From: Streptacidiphilus neutrinimicus
Lineage (GTDB): Bacteria; Actinomycetota; Actinomycetes; Streptomycetales; Streptomycetaceae
DNA length: 52,084 nt
Assembly: GCF_000787815.1 (NCBI RefSeq)
Contig: NZ_BBPO01000046.1
Location: 12,847 to 64,930, forward strand
Direction: 5' to 3'
Part shown: positions 5,922-47,256 of the stretch, piece after piece
How the letters are laid out: each line of letters starts with the position of its first letter
Position numbering within the stretch: the stretch's first letter is position 1
Position numbers and translations under genes: made by a program
The notes under the pieces: generated by a model
The model's input: the letters and a program-made list of their open reading frames with translations, nothing else
Databases searched by the model: none
What the model was told of the DNA's origin: nothing

Positions 5922-6587
5922 ATGAGGATCGTGGTCGCCGACGACCAGGCCGGCATCCGCGAAGCGCTCGCGGTCATGCTCGACCTGGTCGAGGGGATCG
6001 AGGTCGTGGCCACGGCCGCGAACGGCAGCCAGGCGCTCGACCAGGTCGCCGCACACCTGCCCGACGCGATCCTGCTCGACCTCCACATGCCGGTGCTGGA
6101 CGGAACCGAGGCCACCCGTCGGCTGACCGAACGCTTCCCCCAGGTGGCCGTCGTCGTGCTGACCACCTACGCCGACGACGACCTGGTCCTCGAGACGCTG
6201 CGGGCCGGCGCCCGTGCCTACCTGACCAAGGACGCCGACAAGGCCCACATCGTGCGCACCCTGCACAGCGCCGTCACCGGCCTGACCGTCCTGGACCCGA
6301 GGGTCCAGGCCACGCTCCTGGCCGCCGCGCAGCGGCCGGTCGTCGTCACCGGTGACGGGCAGCAGCCGTCGCCGGAGCCGCCGCAGGAGCGGCCGGACGC
6401 CCTCACACCGCGCGAGGCCGAGATCCTCACCCTGCTGGCCCGCGGGCTGAGCAACCAGGAGATCGCCGCCGCTCTGTTCCTCAGCCACAACACCGTCAAG
6501 ACCCACGTCAACCGGATCTTCACCAAGACCGGCTCCCGCGACCGCGTCGCCGCCGCCCACTACGCCCGCCGCCACCACCTGGACTGA
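5922..6587 (+). CDS. NarL/FixJ-family response regulator
   Basis: A 221-residue regulator. The receiver domain (1-120) has the acidic pair in VVADDQ, phosphoacceptor Asp53 (ILLDLHMP), the Thr in VVLTTY and the Lys in YLTKDA. A linker rich in Pro/Gln leads to a LuxR-type helix-turn-helix (about 158-215) with LTPREAEILTLLARGLSNQEIA and SHNTVKTHVNRI. A GTG at 5898 inside the kinase stop is an in-frame alternative start adding eight residues. Cognate partner of the preceding kinase; the palindrome at 3747-3769 is a candidate autoregulatory target. Confidence 0.93.
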   Translation: MRIVVADDQAGIREALAVMLDLVEGIEVVATAANGSQALDQVAAHLPDAILLDLHMPVLDGTEATRRLTERFPQVAVVVLTTYADDDLVLETLRAGARAYLTKDADKAHIVRTLHSAVTGLTVLDPRVQATLLAAAQRPVVVTGDGQQPSPEPPQERPDALTPREAEILTLLARGLSNQEIAAALFLSHNTVKTHVNRIFTKTGSRDRVAAAHYARRHHLD

Positions 6588-42557: not shown

Positions 42558-43007
42558 TCAGGTCAGACGGGGGAGCTTGACCACCGTGACGAAGAACTCG
42601 TCGATCTGGCGTACGGCCTGCATGAACTCGTCCAGGCCCACGGGCTTGGTGACGTAGGCGTTCGCGTGGAGCTTGTAGCTGCGCAGCACGTCCTCCTCGG
42701 CTGCCGAGGTCGTCAGCACCACGATGGGGATATGGGCGAGTTCGGGGTCGGACTTGATGGTCTGCAGGACCTCGCGGCCGTCGTACTTGGGCAGGTTGAG
42801 GTCGAGCAGGATCAGGTCGGGGCGGACCGCGTCGGTGTGGGCGCCGCGGCGGTACAGGAAGTCGAGGGCCTCCTCGCCGTCGCGCACGACGTGGAGGTTG
42901 TTGCGGATCTTGTTGTCCTCGAAGGCCTCGCGGGTCATCAGTTCGTCGCCCGGGTCGTCCTCGACGAGGAGGACGTCGATGGGCGTGGCGGCGGTCGGCT
43001 GAGTCAC
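42558..43007 (-). CDS. Single-domain response regulator (Rcp1-like)
   Basis: A 149-residue receiver without output domain: acidic pocket LLVEDDPGDELMTREAF, phosphoacceptor Asp69 (LILLDLNLPKYDGREVL), Thr in VVLTTSAAEEDVL and Lys in AYVTKPVG. The layout is that of regulators paired with phytochrome-type or CHASE3 kinases. GTG start overlaps the kinase stop (GTGA). Last gene of a three-gene operon; it may carry phosphate on to another protein. Confidence 0.92.
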   Translation of the reverse strand: MTQPTAATPIDVLLVEDDPGDELMTREAFEDNKIRNNLHVVRDGEEALDFLYRRGAHTDAVRPDLILLDLNLPKYDGREVLQTIKSDPELAHIPIVVLTTSAAEEDVLRSYKLHANAYVTKPVGLDEFMQAVRQIDEFFVTVVKLPRLT

Positions 43008-44635
43008 GAGGGGCTTCCTTCGCGTTCGGGTGCGGGCAGGGCGGTCGACGGCGGCAGCGGATCCGACGGCTGGGTCGGGAGCGTGAAGCAGATGCGGGTG
43101 CCGCCGGTGTGTGCGGTGTCGACCCAGATGCGGCCGCCGTGGTACTCGACGATCTTCTTGCACAGAGCCAGCCCGATGCCGGTGCCCTGGTAGGCGTCGC
43201 GGCCGTGCAGGCGCTGGAAGATGACGAAGACCTTCTCGGCGAACTGCGAGGGGATGCCGATGCCGTTGTCGGTGACGCTGATCAGCACGACGTCGCGTTC
43301 CTCGGGATGCGGCGCGGCTTCGACGACGATCGAAGGAGCCTGGTCGGGCTGACGGAACTTGATGGCGTTGCCGAAGAGGTTCTGCCAGAGCATGCCCACG
43401 AGGGTCGGGTCGCCGGTGACGGTGGGCAGGTGGGCGGGCAGGTCGATGCGGGCGTGGCTGTCGTCCACGGCCGCCTGCAGGTCGCCCAGGGCCTTCCGGG
43501 CGCTGGCTCCGAGGTCGACCGGAATGCGGGCGTCGTTGACCCGTCCCACCCGGGAGAAGCCGAGCAGGTCGTTGATGAGGATCTGCATGCGCTTGGCGCC
43601 GTCGACGGCGAAGTCGATGTACTGGCGGGCGCGGTCGTCGAGGTGGTCGCCGTACCGTCGCTCGAGGAGCTGGCAGAAGGAGGCGACCTTGCGCAGCGGC
43701 TCCTGCAGGTCGTGGGAGGCGACGTAGGCGAACTGCTCCAGCTCGCTGTTCGAGCGCTGCAGTTCGACAGCCTGGTCGGTCAGGGCGTCGTGCTTGCGCG
43801 CCGCCTCGTCGAGCGCGTCGGCCAGACGCCCGCGCATCGCGTCGACGTCCTTGCCCAGCGCGCGGATGTCCGACGGGCCGCTGAGAGGCAGCGGCTCGTC
43901 GAAGTGGCCTGCGACGACGGTGTGGACGGCCGCGCGGAGGACGCGCAGCGGCCGCAGCACGGTCACGTGCAGCAGGACCGTGAGCGCGACGGCGCTCAGC
44001 AGGAAGACGGTGAGCATCGCCGCAAAGGCCCAGTCGCGGGTCCGCCGGGCCTGGACAAGCGTCGCCGTGGCGGAGGCGCGCTCGGCGTCGAGCTGGTGCT
44101 GCGCGCCGACGAACAGGGTGCGCATCCGGTCGAAAGCCGCCTTGCTGGACGCCAGTTGTGCGTCGCCGACGTGGCGTCCGCCGTGTGTCTGGTCGATGAA
44201 CGGCTGGGCGTAGCCGGCCTTCCACGCTGCCGCGGCGTGCTCGATGGCGGCCGTGTCGGCCAGCGCTCGGGGATGGCCGGTGAGCGATCGGCTCAGCGAG
44301 GAGAGGGCTTGCCGCTCGATCGGCTCGCCCTGTTCGTAGGGCTGGAGGAACTCCGGGTTGCCGGTGAGGATGTAGCCGCGCACGCCGGTCTCCTCGTCGA
44401 CGAGCGCGGCTTCCAGCCCGGCCAGCTGAGCGGCCGCCGGATCGAGGTGGCCGACCAGGTTGTCGGACGCCGTCGTGGTGCGGTCCAGCAGGACCGCGCC
44501 GACCACCGCGAAGACGACCACCAGCACGACCATCGACGACACGATGGCAAGGAACCAGCTCCGCACACTCCAGTTTCGGGGCGTCCCCGTGAGCACTCCG
44601 GGTGCTGTCGCGGAAGGGGCGGCGGGCCCGGTCAT
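43004..44635 (-). CDS. CHASE3-domain sensor histidine kinase
   Basis: A 543-residue membrane kinase: transmembrane segment 28-50, extracytoplasmic CHASE3 domain (about 55-195, with DEETGVRGYILTGNPEFLQP), second transmembrane segment 203-227, HAMP (228-280), HisKA with phospho-His308 (FAYVASHDLQEPLRKVASFC) and HATPase (FGNAIKFRQP; VTDNGIGIPSQFAEKVF; GTGIGLALCKKIVEYHGG). Start overlaps the upstream stop (ATGA). Between the receiver-PP2C protein and a single-domain receiver, so both are candidate phosphate acceptors. Confidence 0.94.
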   Translation of the reverse strand: MTGPAAPSATAPGVLTGTPRNWSVRSWFLAIVSSMVVLVVVFAVVGAVLLDRTTTASDNLVGHLDPAAAQLAGLEAALVDEETGVRGYILTGNPEFLQPYEQGEPIERQALSSLSRSLTGHPRALADTAAIEHAAAAWKAGYAQPFIDQTHGGRHVGDAQLASSKAAFDRMRTLFVGAQHQLDAERASATATLVQARRTRDWAFAAMLTVFLLSAVALTVLLHVTVLRPLRVLRAAVHTVVAGHFDEPLPLSGPSDIRALGKDVDAMRGRLADALDEAARKHDALTDQAVELQRSNSELEQFAYVASHDLQEPLRKVASFCQLLERRYGDHLDDRARQYIDFAVDGAKRMQILINDLLGFSRVGRVNDARIPVDLGASARKALGDLQAAVDDSHARIDLPAHLPTVTGDPTLVGMLWQNLFGNAIKFRQPDQAPSIVVEAAPHPEERDVVLISVTDNGIGIPSQFAEKVFVIFQRLHGRDAYQGTGIGLALCKKIVEYHGGRIWVDTAHTGGTRICFTLPTQPSDPLPPSTALPAPEREGSPS

Positions 44636-45858
44636 ACGTCTGCCTTTCGCTGCAGGTACAGCACGGCCACGTCGTCCCCTGATCCCAGGACGCCCGCTCG
44701 GCCCTCCGGATGGGCGGCCTGCTCGGCCCGGCTCAGATCGATGAGCGTGTCGACGAACTCCTGAGCCGGCAGGCCGCCGAGCGTGTCGGCGAGGTGGGTC
44801 AGCCGCTGCTCGCCGAGCCTCTCGCCGCCGGTCAGGCGCGTCTCGTACAGGCCGTCGGTGAACATCACCAGCGCTTCCTCCGGCCGGTGGTCCACCGGGC
44901 GCTGCGGCCAGTCCCCGACGCCGGGAACCAGGCCCAGAGCCGGCCCGTGCTCGGGTTCCACCAGGCGCACCCTCCGCTCGGACCGCAGCAGCACCCCGGG
45001 ATGCCCGGCGCGGGTGATCGTCAGCCCGCCCCCGCGGGGGAAGGTGGCCATCACCAGGGTCGCGAACGCCTCGGGCGTCCGCCGCTCTGCCAGCAGCAGC
45101 TGCTCCAGCTTCCGCAACAGGTCGGCTCCGCGATGGCCGGCCATGACGAGCGTGCGCCAGCCCACCCGCAGGCCCGCGCCCAGTGCCGCCTCGTCCGGGC
45201 CGTGGCCGGACACGTCGCCCACGACCGCGTGCACGTCCCCGTCCGCCGTCTCGATCACGTCGTAGAAGTCGCCGCCGAGCAGGGCGCCGGCCCGGCTCGG
45301 GCGGTAGCCGCACGCCACCTCGATGTCCGCGTCGCGCAGGAGCGGGGTGGGCAGCAGCCCGCGTTCCAGTCGCGCGTTCTCCTGGGCGCGCCAACGGGCG
45401 GCCGCGAGTGCCGCGGCGGCCTGCCCCGCCTGCTTGCGCTGCACCGCATAGCGCACGGTCCGCGCGAACCACTCGCCCTCGACCTTGCCCTTGACCAGGT
45501 AGTCCTGGGCGCCCGCCTGGACCGCCGCGAGACCCGCCGCGCGGTCGTCGAGCCCGGTCATCACCACCACCGCGGTGACCCCGACCTCGCGCAGGAATTC
45601 GGCGAGCGCACCGATGCCCGCCAGGTCCGGCAGGTGCAGGTCCAGGACGAGGCAGTCGGCCGCGCCTTCGGCCACCGCCCGGCGCGCGTCCGCCGCGGAG
45701 CGCACCCACGTCAGCGAGGCGTCCAGATCGCCGTCGGCCAGCAACTCCTCCACCAACAGGGCATCGGCCGGATCGTCCTCCGCCAGGACGATCCTCAGCC
45801 GAGTCGCCTGCGCCTGCCCCGCCACGCGGCGCTGCACCACTGTCACCGGACTCCACAT
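44632..45858 (-). CDS. Receiver-PP2C phosphatase (RssB/IcfG-like output)
   Basis: A 408-residue response regulator with a phosphatase output. Receiver (about 20-140): VLAEDDPADALLVEELL, phospho-Asp73 (CLVLDLHLPDLAG), VMTGLDDRAAGL and YLVKGK. PP2C (about 185-405): GGDFYDVIE, VGDVSGHGPDEAALGAGLR, MFTDGLYETR and SGDDVAVLYL. Phosphorylation by the CHASE3 kinase would gate dephosphorylation of a STAS antagonist, joining two-component and partner-switching signalling. First gene of its operon. Confidence 0.93.
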   Translation of the reverse strand: MWSPVTVVQRRVAGQAQATRLRIVLAEDDPADALLVEELLADGDLDASLTWVRSAADARRAVAEGAADCLVLDLHLPDLAGIGALAEFLREVGVTAVVVMTGLDDRAAGLAAVQAGAQDYLVKGKVEGEWFARTVRYAVQRKQAGQAAAALAAARWRAQENARLERGLLPTPLLRDADIEVACGYRPSRAGALLGGDFYDVIETADGDVHAVVGDVSGHGPDEAALGAGLRVGWRTLVMAGHRGADLLRKLEQLLLAERRTPEAFATLVMATFPRGGGLTITRAGHPGVLLRSERRVRLVEPEHGPALGLVPGVGDWPQRPVDHRPEEALVMFTDGLYETRLTGGERLGEQRLTHLADTLGGLPAQEFVDTLIDLSRAEQAAHPEGRAGVLGSGDDVAVLYLQRKADV

Positions 45859-45922: not shown

Positions 45923-46201
45923 TCAGTCGGCGGCGAGTTGCTCGCGCAGCTTGCCCAGCGCGGCCGCGAGGAGTCGCGAGACCTGCATCTGTGACACGCC
46001 GACCCGTCGGCGCCGCTCGAACAGCACGCGGCTCAGGTCCTTCGCGGTCGCCGTGTCGACGGGCGAGGCGCGGGTGACGTCCGGCAGTTCGCGGCCGGCG
46101 GTCACCAGCGCGGGGACGCCGTCGCTCGCGCCCGCGCCGCAGCCGTCCTCACGGACCGCCAGGGTGCGCGCGGCGGCGGGTGCGGTTTCGGTGCGGGGCA
46201 T
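45923..46201 (-). CDS. Internally deleted SigB/SigF-family sigma factor remnant (mini-sigma)
   Basis: A 92-residue protein with a strong ribosome binding site (AAGGAG six bases before ATG). After a variable N-terminus it has DTATAKDLSRVLFERRR, the conserved start of SigB/F/G-family factors (normally continuing 'L..LEEGT.EYQYVRN'). It then jumps to VGVSQMQVSRLLAAALGKLR, the last helix of sigma region 4.2 and the usual C-terminus. Regions 2, 3 and most of 4 (about 170 residues) are missing. It cannot form a working sigma factor; whether it is a relic or a decoy binder is unknown. Divergent from a STAS-RsbW pair. Confidence 0.6.
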   Translation of the reverse strand: MPRTETAPAAARTLAVREDGCGAGASDGVPALVTAGRELPDVTRASPVDTATAKDLSRVLFERRRRVGVSQMQVSRLLAAALGKLREQLAAD

Positions 46202-46221
46202 CAGGGCTCCTTCGGCGCGTA

Positions 46222-46249
46222 GGACCCCGCCGCTGGTGCGGCGGGGTCC
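46222..46249. terminator. 12-bp perfect hairpin in the leader of the mini-sigma gene
   Basis: GGACCCCGCCGC-TGGT-GCGGCGGGGTCC, ten bases upstream of the mini-sigma Shine-Dalgarno. On the minus strand it could terminate or attenuate transcription before the gene; no gene on either side needs it as an ordinary terminator. Confidence 0.55.
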
Positions 46250-46429
46250 GGCTTCATCAGGCGTCCTTCGCCGTGTACCCCGATTCACCGAGATGATGTG
46301 CCGTCCCTCCGCGCGGGCTCGACGCGGCCTGTGCCGATGGCGGCCCCTTCAGGGGCGGCGGCCGGGGACAGGTGTGGCAACGATAGCCTCTGCCGAAAGC
46401 CGACCACCGATGCGCTGGAGCGTGCAAGC

Positions 46430-46810
46430 ATGTCCGAACCGGAGAACACGCCGGCCGCCCCTCCCGAGGCGGATCGGCTGACCGTCGCGGTTCGCACGGC
46501 GGAGGAGGCGGGGTACGTCCTGCTGGCAGGCGAGCTCGATCCCGACACCGCGCCCGAAGTCGCGCTCGCCACGGGTTCGCTCATGGACGCGGGGGTGACC
46601 AGAATCGTCCTCGACTGCTCACGGCTGGGCTTTTGCGACTCCTCCGGGCTCAACGTCCTCTTGAGGGCCCGGCAGCAGGTCAGCGACGTCGGCGGACGGC
46701 TGGTCCTGGCCGCGCCGACGCGGCAGCTGCTGCGTCTGCTCGAACTGACCGGTGCCCTTTCCGTGTTCGAGACCCAGCCGGACGTCGCCTGCGCCCTGGC
46801 GGAAGCATGA
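46430..46810 (+). CDS. STAS-domain anti-sigma factor antagonist (RsbV-like)
   Basis: A 126-residue protein: AGYVLLAGELDPDTAPEVAL and RIVLDCSRLGFCDSSGLNVL with the target Ser in CDSSGL, then RLVLAAPTRQLLRLLELTGA. Start ATG follows GGAG. Its stop overlaps the start of the RsbW-like kinase (ATGA), the classical antagonist/anti-sigma pair. Confidence 0.9.
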   Translation: MSEPENTPAAPPEADRLTVAVRTAEEAGYVLLAGELDPDTAPEVALATGSLMDAGVTRIVLDCSRLGFCDSSGLNVLLRARQQVSDVGGRLVLAAPTRQLLRLLELTGALSVFETQPDVACALAEA

Positions 46811-47256
46811 GCGGCGCAAGCGTCGAGTCCGAGGCGCTGATCCGGACTCCGTCCCGGCAGGTCCGACGGCTCGGCCTGCACGGCGTCGTCGGGGCCGTGG
46901 GTCGCGCCCGTGACTTCACGGGCGGCGTGCTGCGCGAATGGGTCTGGACGGATCCGGAGGGCATCGACCCCAAGGGGCGGGAACGGGCAGAGGACATCCT
47001 GCTGGTCGTCTCCGAACTGGTCGCGAACGCGATGGCTCACGGTGCCGGTGTTCAGGAGATCGCGGTCACGGTCGACGAGCGAGTTCTCACGGTGGCCGTG
47101 ACGGATGGCGAAGCTGCTGTGCCCGCGCCCCTTCCGCCGGGTGACCCGGCCCGACCCGGCGGCTACGGACTGCATGTGGTGGAGCTCCTGAGCCGGCAGT
47201 GGGGAACGACGTGCCACGCATCGGGCAAGACCGTGTGGGCGGTGTTCGACTGCTGA
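46807..47256 (+). CDS. RsbW-like ATP-binding anti-sigma factor
   Basis: A 149-residue GHKL protein: ERAEDILLVVSELVANAMAH (N-box), TVAVTDGEAAVPAPLP (a weak G1 box, 'DGE' in place of 'D.G') and RPGGYGLHVVELLSRQWGTT (G2). Residues 20-50 resemble the anti-sigma 'VGRARDF....L.EW' helix. It would bind a SigB-type sigma factor and phosphorylate the adjacent STAS protein. The likely original partner is the gene now reduced to the mini-sigma. Confidence 0.85.
   Translation: MSGASVESEALIRTPSRQVRRLGLHGVVGAVGRARDFTGGVLREWVWTDPEGIDPKGRERAEDILLVVSELVANAMAHGAGVQEIAVTVDERVLTVAVTDGEAAVPAPLPPGDPARPGGYGLHVVELLSRQWGTTCHASGKTVWAVFDC

Follow-up and report, generated by a model that had tools for sequence, protein, structure and literature searches.

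An in-frame remnant of a SigB-family sigma factor gene, probably in decay, beside a STAS–HATPase pair in Streptacidiphilus neutrinimicus

The window analysed here, a stretch of 52,084 nucleotides from Streptacidiphilus neutrinimicus, contains a short open reading frame (45923..46201, reverse strand) that we call mini-sigma. It encodes some 62–65 N-terminal residues of a SigB-family sigma factor followed directly by the second helix and the tail of region 4.2, and is probably what remains of a redundant SigI-type, SigB-family sigma gene that is decaying and no longer works as a sigma factor. A single in-frame deletion of about 630–639 bp would have removed regions 2, 3 and 4.1 together with the first helix of region 4.2. 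Sigma region 2 binds the RNA polymerase core and recognizes the -10 element; the product, if made, would be unable to hold the core or read a -10 element, and so would not be a sigma factor. Leader, ribosome site and frame have so far been preserved, which would place the locus at an early stage of decay.

In the ORF reading of the window, the frame starts at an ATG at position 46201 and encodes 92 residues. An AAGGAG ribosome site (46207..46212, reverse strand) lies 5 nt upstream of this ATG, in a position common to all four full-length loci described below, where it reads GGAGG or GGAGC. Third-position G+C is 91%, against 94–96% in the full-length relatives. The 92-residue product, open frame and strong ribosome site of the original prediction are thereby confirmed.

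Both ends of the protein are homologous to SigB-family sigma factors. Four full-length members (299–310 aa), found in a 61-genome search and then compared by local alignment, match mini-sigma over residues 1–65 at the N-terminal end and residues 65/66–92 at the C-terminal end (the last helix of region 4.2); both ends of a single sigma gene are therefore present, in order and in frame. Three of the relatives belong to congeneric species: G006:C105 (305 aa; identity 57% at the N-terminal end and 68% at the C-terminal end), G012:C4 (310 aa; 52% and 67%) and G008:C75 (304 aa; 50% and 70%). The fourth, G000:C171 (299 aa; 50% and 68%), is a paralogue from the same genome. The N-terminal match, which takes in the motif VDTATAK(E/D)LSRVLF, has E-values of 2.7e-12, 1.6e-11 and 9.4e-9 for the three congeneric proteins and 7.1e-7 for the paralogue. 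All identities are those of the local alignments; MAFFT put the C-terminal end and, in one alignment, the N-terminal motif in wrong columns.

Profile searches point to the same family. Residues 65–89 match the last positions of the NCBIfam models for SigF (PRK07122; E 1.1e-6, 28.1 bits, cut-off 372) and SigB/SigF/SigG (TIGR02980; E 2.3e-5, 24.2 bits, cut-off 234.35). The protein also matches positions 29–50 of the 50-position Pfam model Sigma70_r4 (E 0.0041, 17 bits, cut-off 24.1), and its C-terminal end the SigF chain of PDB entry 8jzt (E 4.2e-4). Such sub-cut-off scores are as expected of a fragment: mini-sigma shares the end of the family models, but falls far under their cut-offs and has neither region 2 nor region 3. 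Its N-terminal end matches no family profile in Pfam or NCBIfam, and Pfam gives no Sigma70_r2 match, the residues aligned to region 2 in the relatives being absent. The predicted SigB/SigF-family ends are thus borne out by the alignments to four full-length proteins. The 'C-terminal helix of region 4.2' that had been proposed stands insofar as the second helix and tail are kept, but the first helix is replaced, so that a complete helix-turn-helix is absent; where the relatives have the hydrophobic and small residues of EIGxRIG, mini-sigma has ERRRRVG.

Between LSRVLF and GVSQMQ, 630 bp are missing relative to three relatives and 639 bp relative to one, in each case a multiple of three of about 210 codons. 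The missing stretch corresponds to about residues 59–269 of the full-length paralogue and covers regions 2, 3 and 4.1 plus the first helix of region 4.2. A G+C-rich stretch encoding FERRRRVG, at approximately 45998..46020 (reverse strand), contains the junction. The breakpoint is ambiguous by about 6–7 bp, with several positions scoring equally or within one base, and a slip between short repeats is a plausible origin. An internal in-frame deletion had been named as the simplest origin, and the matches of the four relatives to both ends, leader and divergent neighbours lend it support. A random deletion keeps the frame one time in three, and in DNA so rich in G+C both shifted frames across the junction would stay open for 51 codons or more; the open frame alone is therefore weak evidence of function.

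An assembly error hiding a full-length gene would give the same appearance. The sequence, junction included, comes from a draft assembly of 184 contigs. However, the junction lies inside a contig of 64,930 bp, the breakpoint ambiguity of 6–7 bp is too short to mislead an assembler, and no orphan sigma middle piece occurs among the 15 matches that a full-length sigma query (from G012) finds in the assembly, which leaves an artefact only a very slim chance. These matches comprise ten SigB-family sigma factors (E ≤ 5.8e-63), four weaker sigma matches and mini-sigma itself. Since ten SigB-family paralogues remain, the mini-sigma gene was redundant in kind, and would have been expendable.

Within the genomes searched, the deletion appears confined to this one. 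A search for the same deletion in related genomes, as the original prediction had advised, found no second copy in the 393 other Streptomycetaceae genomes: in a set of 394 drawn evenly from a larger group (E ≤ 0.001, scoring up to 13 candidates in each genome), a contiguous match to residues 1–92 occurs in one, the window's own, among the candidates scored. The 61-genome search (E ≤ 10) likewise gave no second mini-sigma among the matches listed. A contig scan kept at least 80 loci, of which the one spanning residues 23–91 (L122) is a full-length sigma gene. Nine loci were considered as further mini-sigmas and rejected. L006, L013, L122, L233, L236 and L268 each encode a full-length sigma factor, the query's alignment falling on sequence ahead of region 4.2 or on one end; L005, L269 and L270 have no frame of at least 80 residues with a region 4.2 motif. 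This reading excludes some further matches spanning both ends, such as G119:C126 and two in G336, and, from the 61-genome search, G000:C111, G010:C143 and ones in G015, G027 and G034. A mobile origin was also rejected: 48 stretches of viral contigs fit a pattern and none encodes a relative, the best PHROGs match reaches only E 0.037, and none of six plasmid records covers 80%.

Mini-sigma is divergent from a STAS protein resembling RsbV and ArsI (46430..46810, forward strand; PF13466, E 5.5e-17) and a HATPase_c_2 protein resembling RsbW and PrsI (46807..47256, forward strand; PF13581, E 4.1e-9), so that the RsbV/RsbW-like pair originally noted beside it is indeed there. Related pairs (57–60% identity by tblastn) stand divergently beside full-length sigma genes; that of the paralogue in the same genome is 59–60% identical, and G012 has the layout of the window with a full-length sigma gene. 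In Streptomyces coelicolor, according to an excerpt of PMC8346170, ArsI and PrsI are encoded divergently upstream of SigI (SCO3068). The window shares this arrangement of a sigma gene divergent from a STAS and HATPase pair, but its sigma gene lacks the middle that makes SigI full length; we call the locus SigI-type for its layout, which does not imply orthology to SCO3068. An extra RsbW-like gene directly precedes the sigma gene in G006, G008 and the paralogue. A second deletion, removing such a gene upstream of mini-sigma, was considered and dropped, as G012 too lacks an RsbW-like gene beside its full-length sigma gene.

The likeness to full-length loci continues upstream of the start codon. 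Over the window and the four full-length loci, the 100 bases 5′ of the start show 83% mean column identity. Here lies a GGGGTAC box (46275..46281, reverse strand), whose GGGTA is invariant in the five loci and resembles the -10 element of SigB-type promoters (consensus in the excerpted PMC8346170); no convincing -35 element was seen. Between the box and the ribosome site, a strong hairpin, GGACCCCGCCGC-ACCA-GCGGCGGGGTCC (46222..46249, reverse strand), has a related counterpart in all four full-length loci and folds in five of five. In one of its pairs (62–78), both bases have changed in the copy of the window, but the covariation term (+1.28) is on the whole unfavourable, so that the predicted hairpin is backed by its folding and position and not by covariation. 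This hairpin, common to all five loci, may act in attenuation or in the control of translation. Rfam gave three weak matches, all under the gathering score, and a scan covering only sigma-70-type promoters and T-tailed terminators returned neither.

A recent deletion would account for the undamaged frame, leader and ribosome site, but so would retention of the ORF to drive the phosphatase and kinase genes that follow. Beginning 64 bp past the mini-sigma stop, a response regulator–SpoIIE phosphatase resembling RsbU (44632..45858), a histidine-kinase-like protein (43004..44635) and a response regulator (42558..43007, start approximate) form a run on the reverse strand. Beyond the window, the phosphatase (61%) and the kinase (54%) have their best relatives outside the genus. 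Mini-sigma might thus be retained as the translated first part of the phosphatase/kinase transcript, its promoter, hairpin leader and ribosome site driving the RsbU–kinase–response regulator genes, with selection on the leader and the protein a by-product. The shared strand, the 64-bp gap and the strong conservation of the leader would suit such a role, as would locus L222 (G035), where a full-length sigma gene of this family directly precedes an RsbU–kinase pair on the same strand. Nevertheless, only two of the 19 other phosphatase loci fetched (L222 and L223) have a sigma gene of this family within about 1.5 kb, 17 lacking one in flanks of this size, and common descent with the full-length loci explains the leader equally well; we consider retention for the leader's sake unlikely.

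Like a pseudogene, mini-sigma has lost domains that are essential in its intact homologues. Counting against decay are the retained leader, ribosome site and frame, as well as the pattern of substitution. Most differences from the relatives in the kept segments fall at third codon positions; compared with the paralogue, differences at first, second and third positions number 1/2/7 over 15 codons of the N-terminal motif and 4/5/12 over 24 codons of the C-terminal segment. Of the 24 residues in this segment, mini-sigma differs from the relatives at 6–8 and the relatives from each other at 4–6, the corresponding third-position differences being 9–12 and 4–9. Over the 15 residues of the N-terminal motif there are 2 differences between mini-sigma and the relatives, and 0–1 from one relative to another. 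No ruined residue was seen in the kept helix, nor any positive sign of drift after the deletion. These counts come from two short segments in five loci, the four relatives all lacking the deletion; they show constraint over most of the branch, and the divergence may all predate the deletion. Under decay, mini-sigma would be inactive and drifting, as we infer.

Retention of the frame had also raised the idea of a decoy or anti-sigma sponge. The peptide would bind the neighbouring HATPase, or another RsbW-like kinase, and free a full-length SigB-family sigma factor. What speaks for it is the open frame and ribosome site beside a STAS–HATPase pair, together with the full-length paralogue and its related pair (59–60% identity) in the same genome. 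In contrast, the deletion has removed regions 2 and 3 as well as the first helix of region 4.2, and with them the part of the sigma factor that such anti-sigma factors hold. According to an excerpt of PMC7340262, Asp148 of SigF is the residue competing with the anti-anti-sigma factor SpoIIAA, and the SpoIIAB complex structure 1L0O holds a fifty-residue stretch of SigF (excerpt of PMC10141391). By alignment to 1l0o chain C, the Asp148 neighbourhood would correspond to about residue 189–191 of the full-length paralogue, placing it, by sequence only, inside the missing stretch (about 59–269). A sponge would therefore need another surface. In addition, residues 1–40 are predicted to be disordered, the model (pTM 0.32) has no Foldseek match in the PDB, and among 394 genomes the deletion was seen in one. 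The decoy idea finds no support and is weak rather than refuted; we grant it very little likelihood. Among the matches listed in a literature search of titles and abstracts, none describes a SigB-family sigma factor that acts as a decoy after an internal deletion; the 'truncated sigma factor' in the excerpted PMC9205884 is a different thing, namely constructs without terminal extensions.

Another way to function would be as a small DNA-binding peptide, in which an N-terminal helix and the recognition helix form a new two-helix unit acting on -35-like DNA or RNA polymerase. The AlphaFold2 model (mean pLDDT 64.1, pTM 0.32) has a disordered first half and helices at 50–67 and 71–91 (block pLDDT 81–93), and a weak POU-domain match covers residues 53–86 (E 0.18). 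On the other hand, the first-helix EIGxRIG has become ERRRRVG, the rows of the model's alignment cover the C-terminal end only, making the N-terminal half a single-sequence guess, and Foldseek against the PDB (E ≤ 10) matched nothing. We see the faintest of chances for such a predicted peptide. Taken more broadly, the deletion might have given rise to a novel, expressed regulator of 92 residues, consisting of a disordered tail and a two-helix unit that ends in the -35-reading helix, under the old sigma promoter beside the partner-switch pair and acting on the paralogous sigma system or -35 DNA; this, too, is highly improbable. If such a peptide is functional, one deletion can turn a sigma factor into a short regulator. 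The two-subunit sigma factor SigO–RsoA of B. subtilis (excerpt of PMC10141391) is alike in that part of a sigma factor is encoded as a short protein, but each of its subunits holds a whole domain and mini-sigma holds none.

Ordinary gene decay caught early is thus the most likely meaning, the alternatives being an ORF kept for its leader or, at low odds, a working peptide. The nearest relative (G010) bears on decay. At its locus G010:C19, DNA identity to the window is 87% for the STAS–HATPase pair and 93% for glgX, and a STAS plus HATPase tree groups the two together (support 1.000), separate from the other five loci. The 3,856 bp that lie between these neighbours in the window, and include mini-sigma and the phosphatase/kinase genes, correspond in G010 to 314 bp of unrelated sequence without a sigma gene. 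As the full-length loci share the leader and layout with the window, the sigma gene was probably once present in G010 and has since been lost outright; the phosphatase block may also have been inserted in the window lineage. A further pair at C108, accompanied by an RsbW-like gene that the start of the contig cuts off, shows that the paralogous type of locus exists in G010 as well. If decay is the explanation, as is likely, the locus is a small example of an expanded stress-sigma family losing members, with the gene hollowed in frame in the window lineage and gone in its nearest relative while the partner-switch pair stays. This raises what the orphaned STAS–HATPase pair now controls. The pair (window 46430–47256, forward strand; L176 2719–3542) is 79–82% identical at the protein level; its G010 copy lacks an adjacent sigma gene and may therefore act on a sigma factor encoded elsewhere. 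Upstream of glgX in the same G010 locus (L176, G010:C19), a frame at 6247–6576 extends up to the end of the contig and terminates with the tail of a region 4.2 (QTQIGSRLGISQMQVSRILSRTLARLRAQLLSER); no sigma sequence is recognizable before this tail, and the frame is perhaps another sigma relic.
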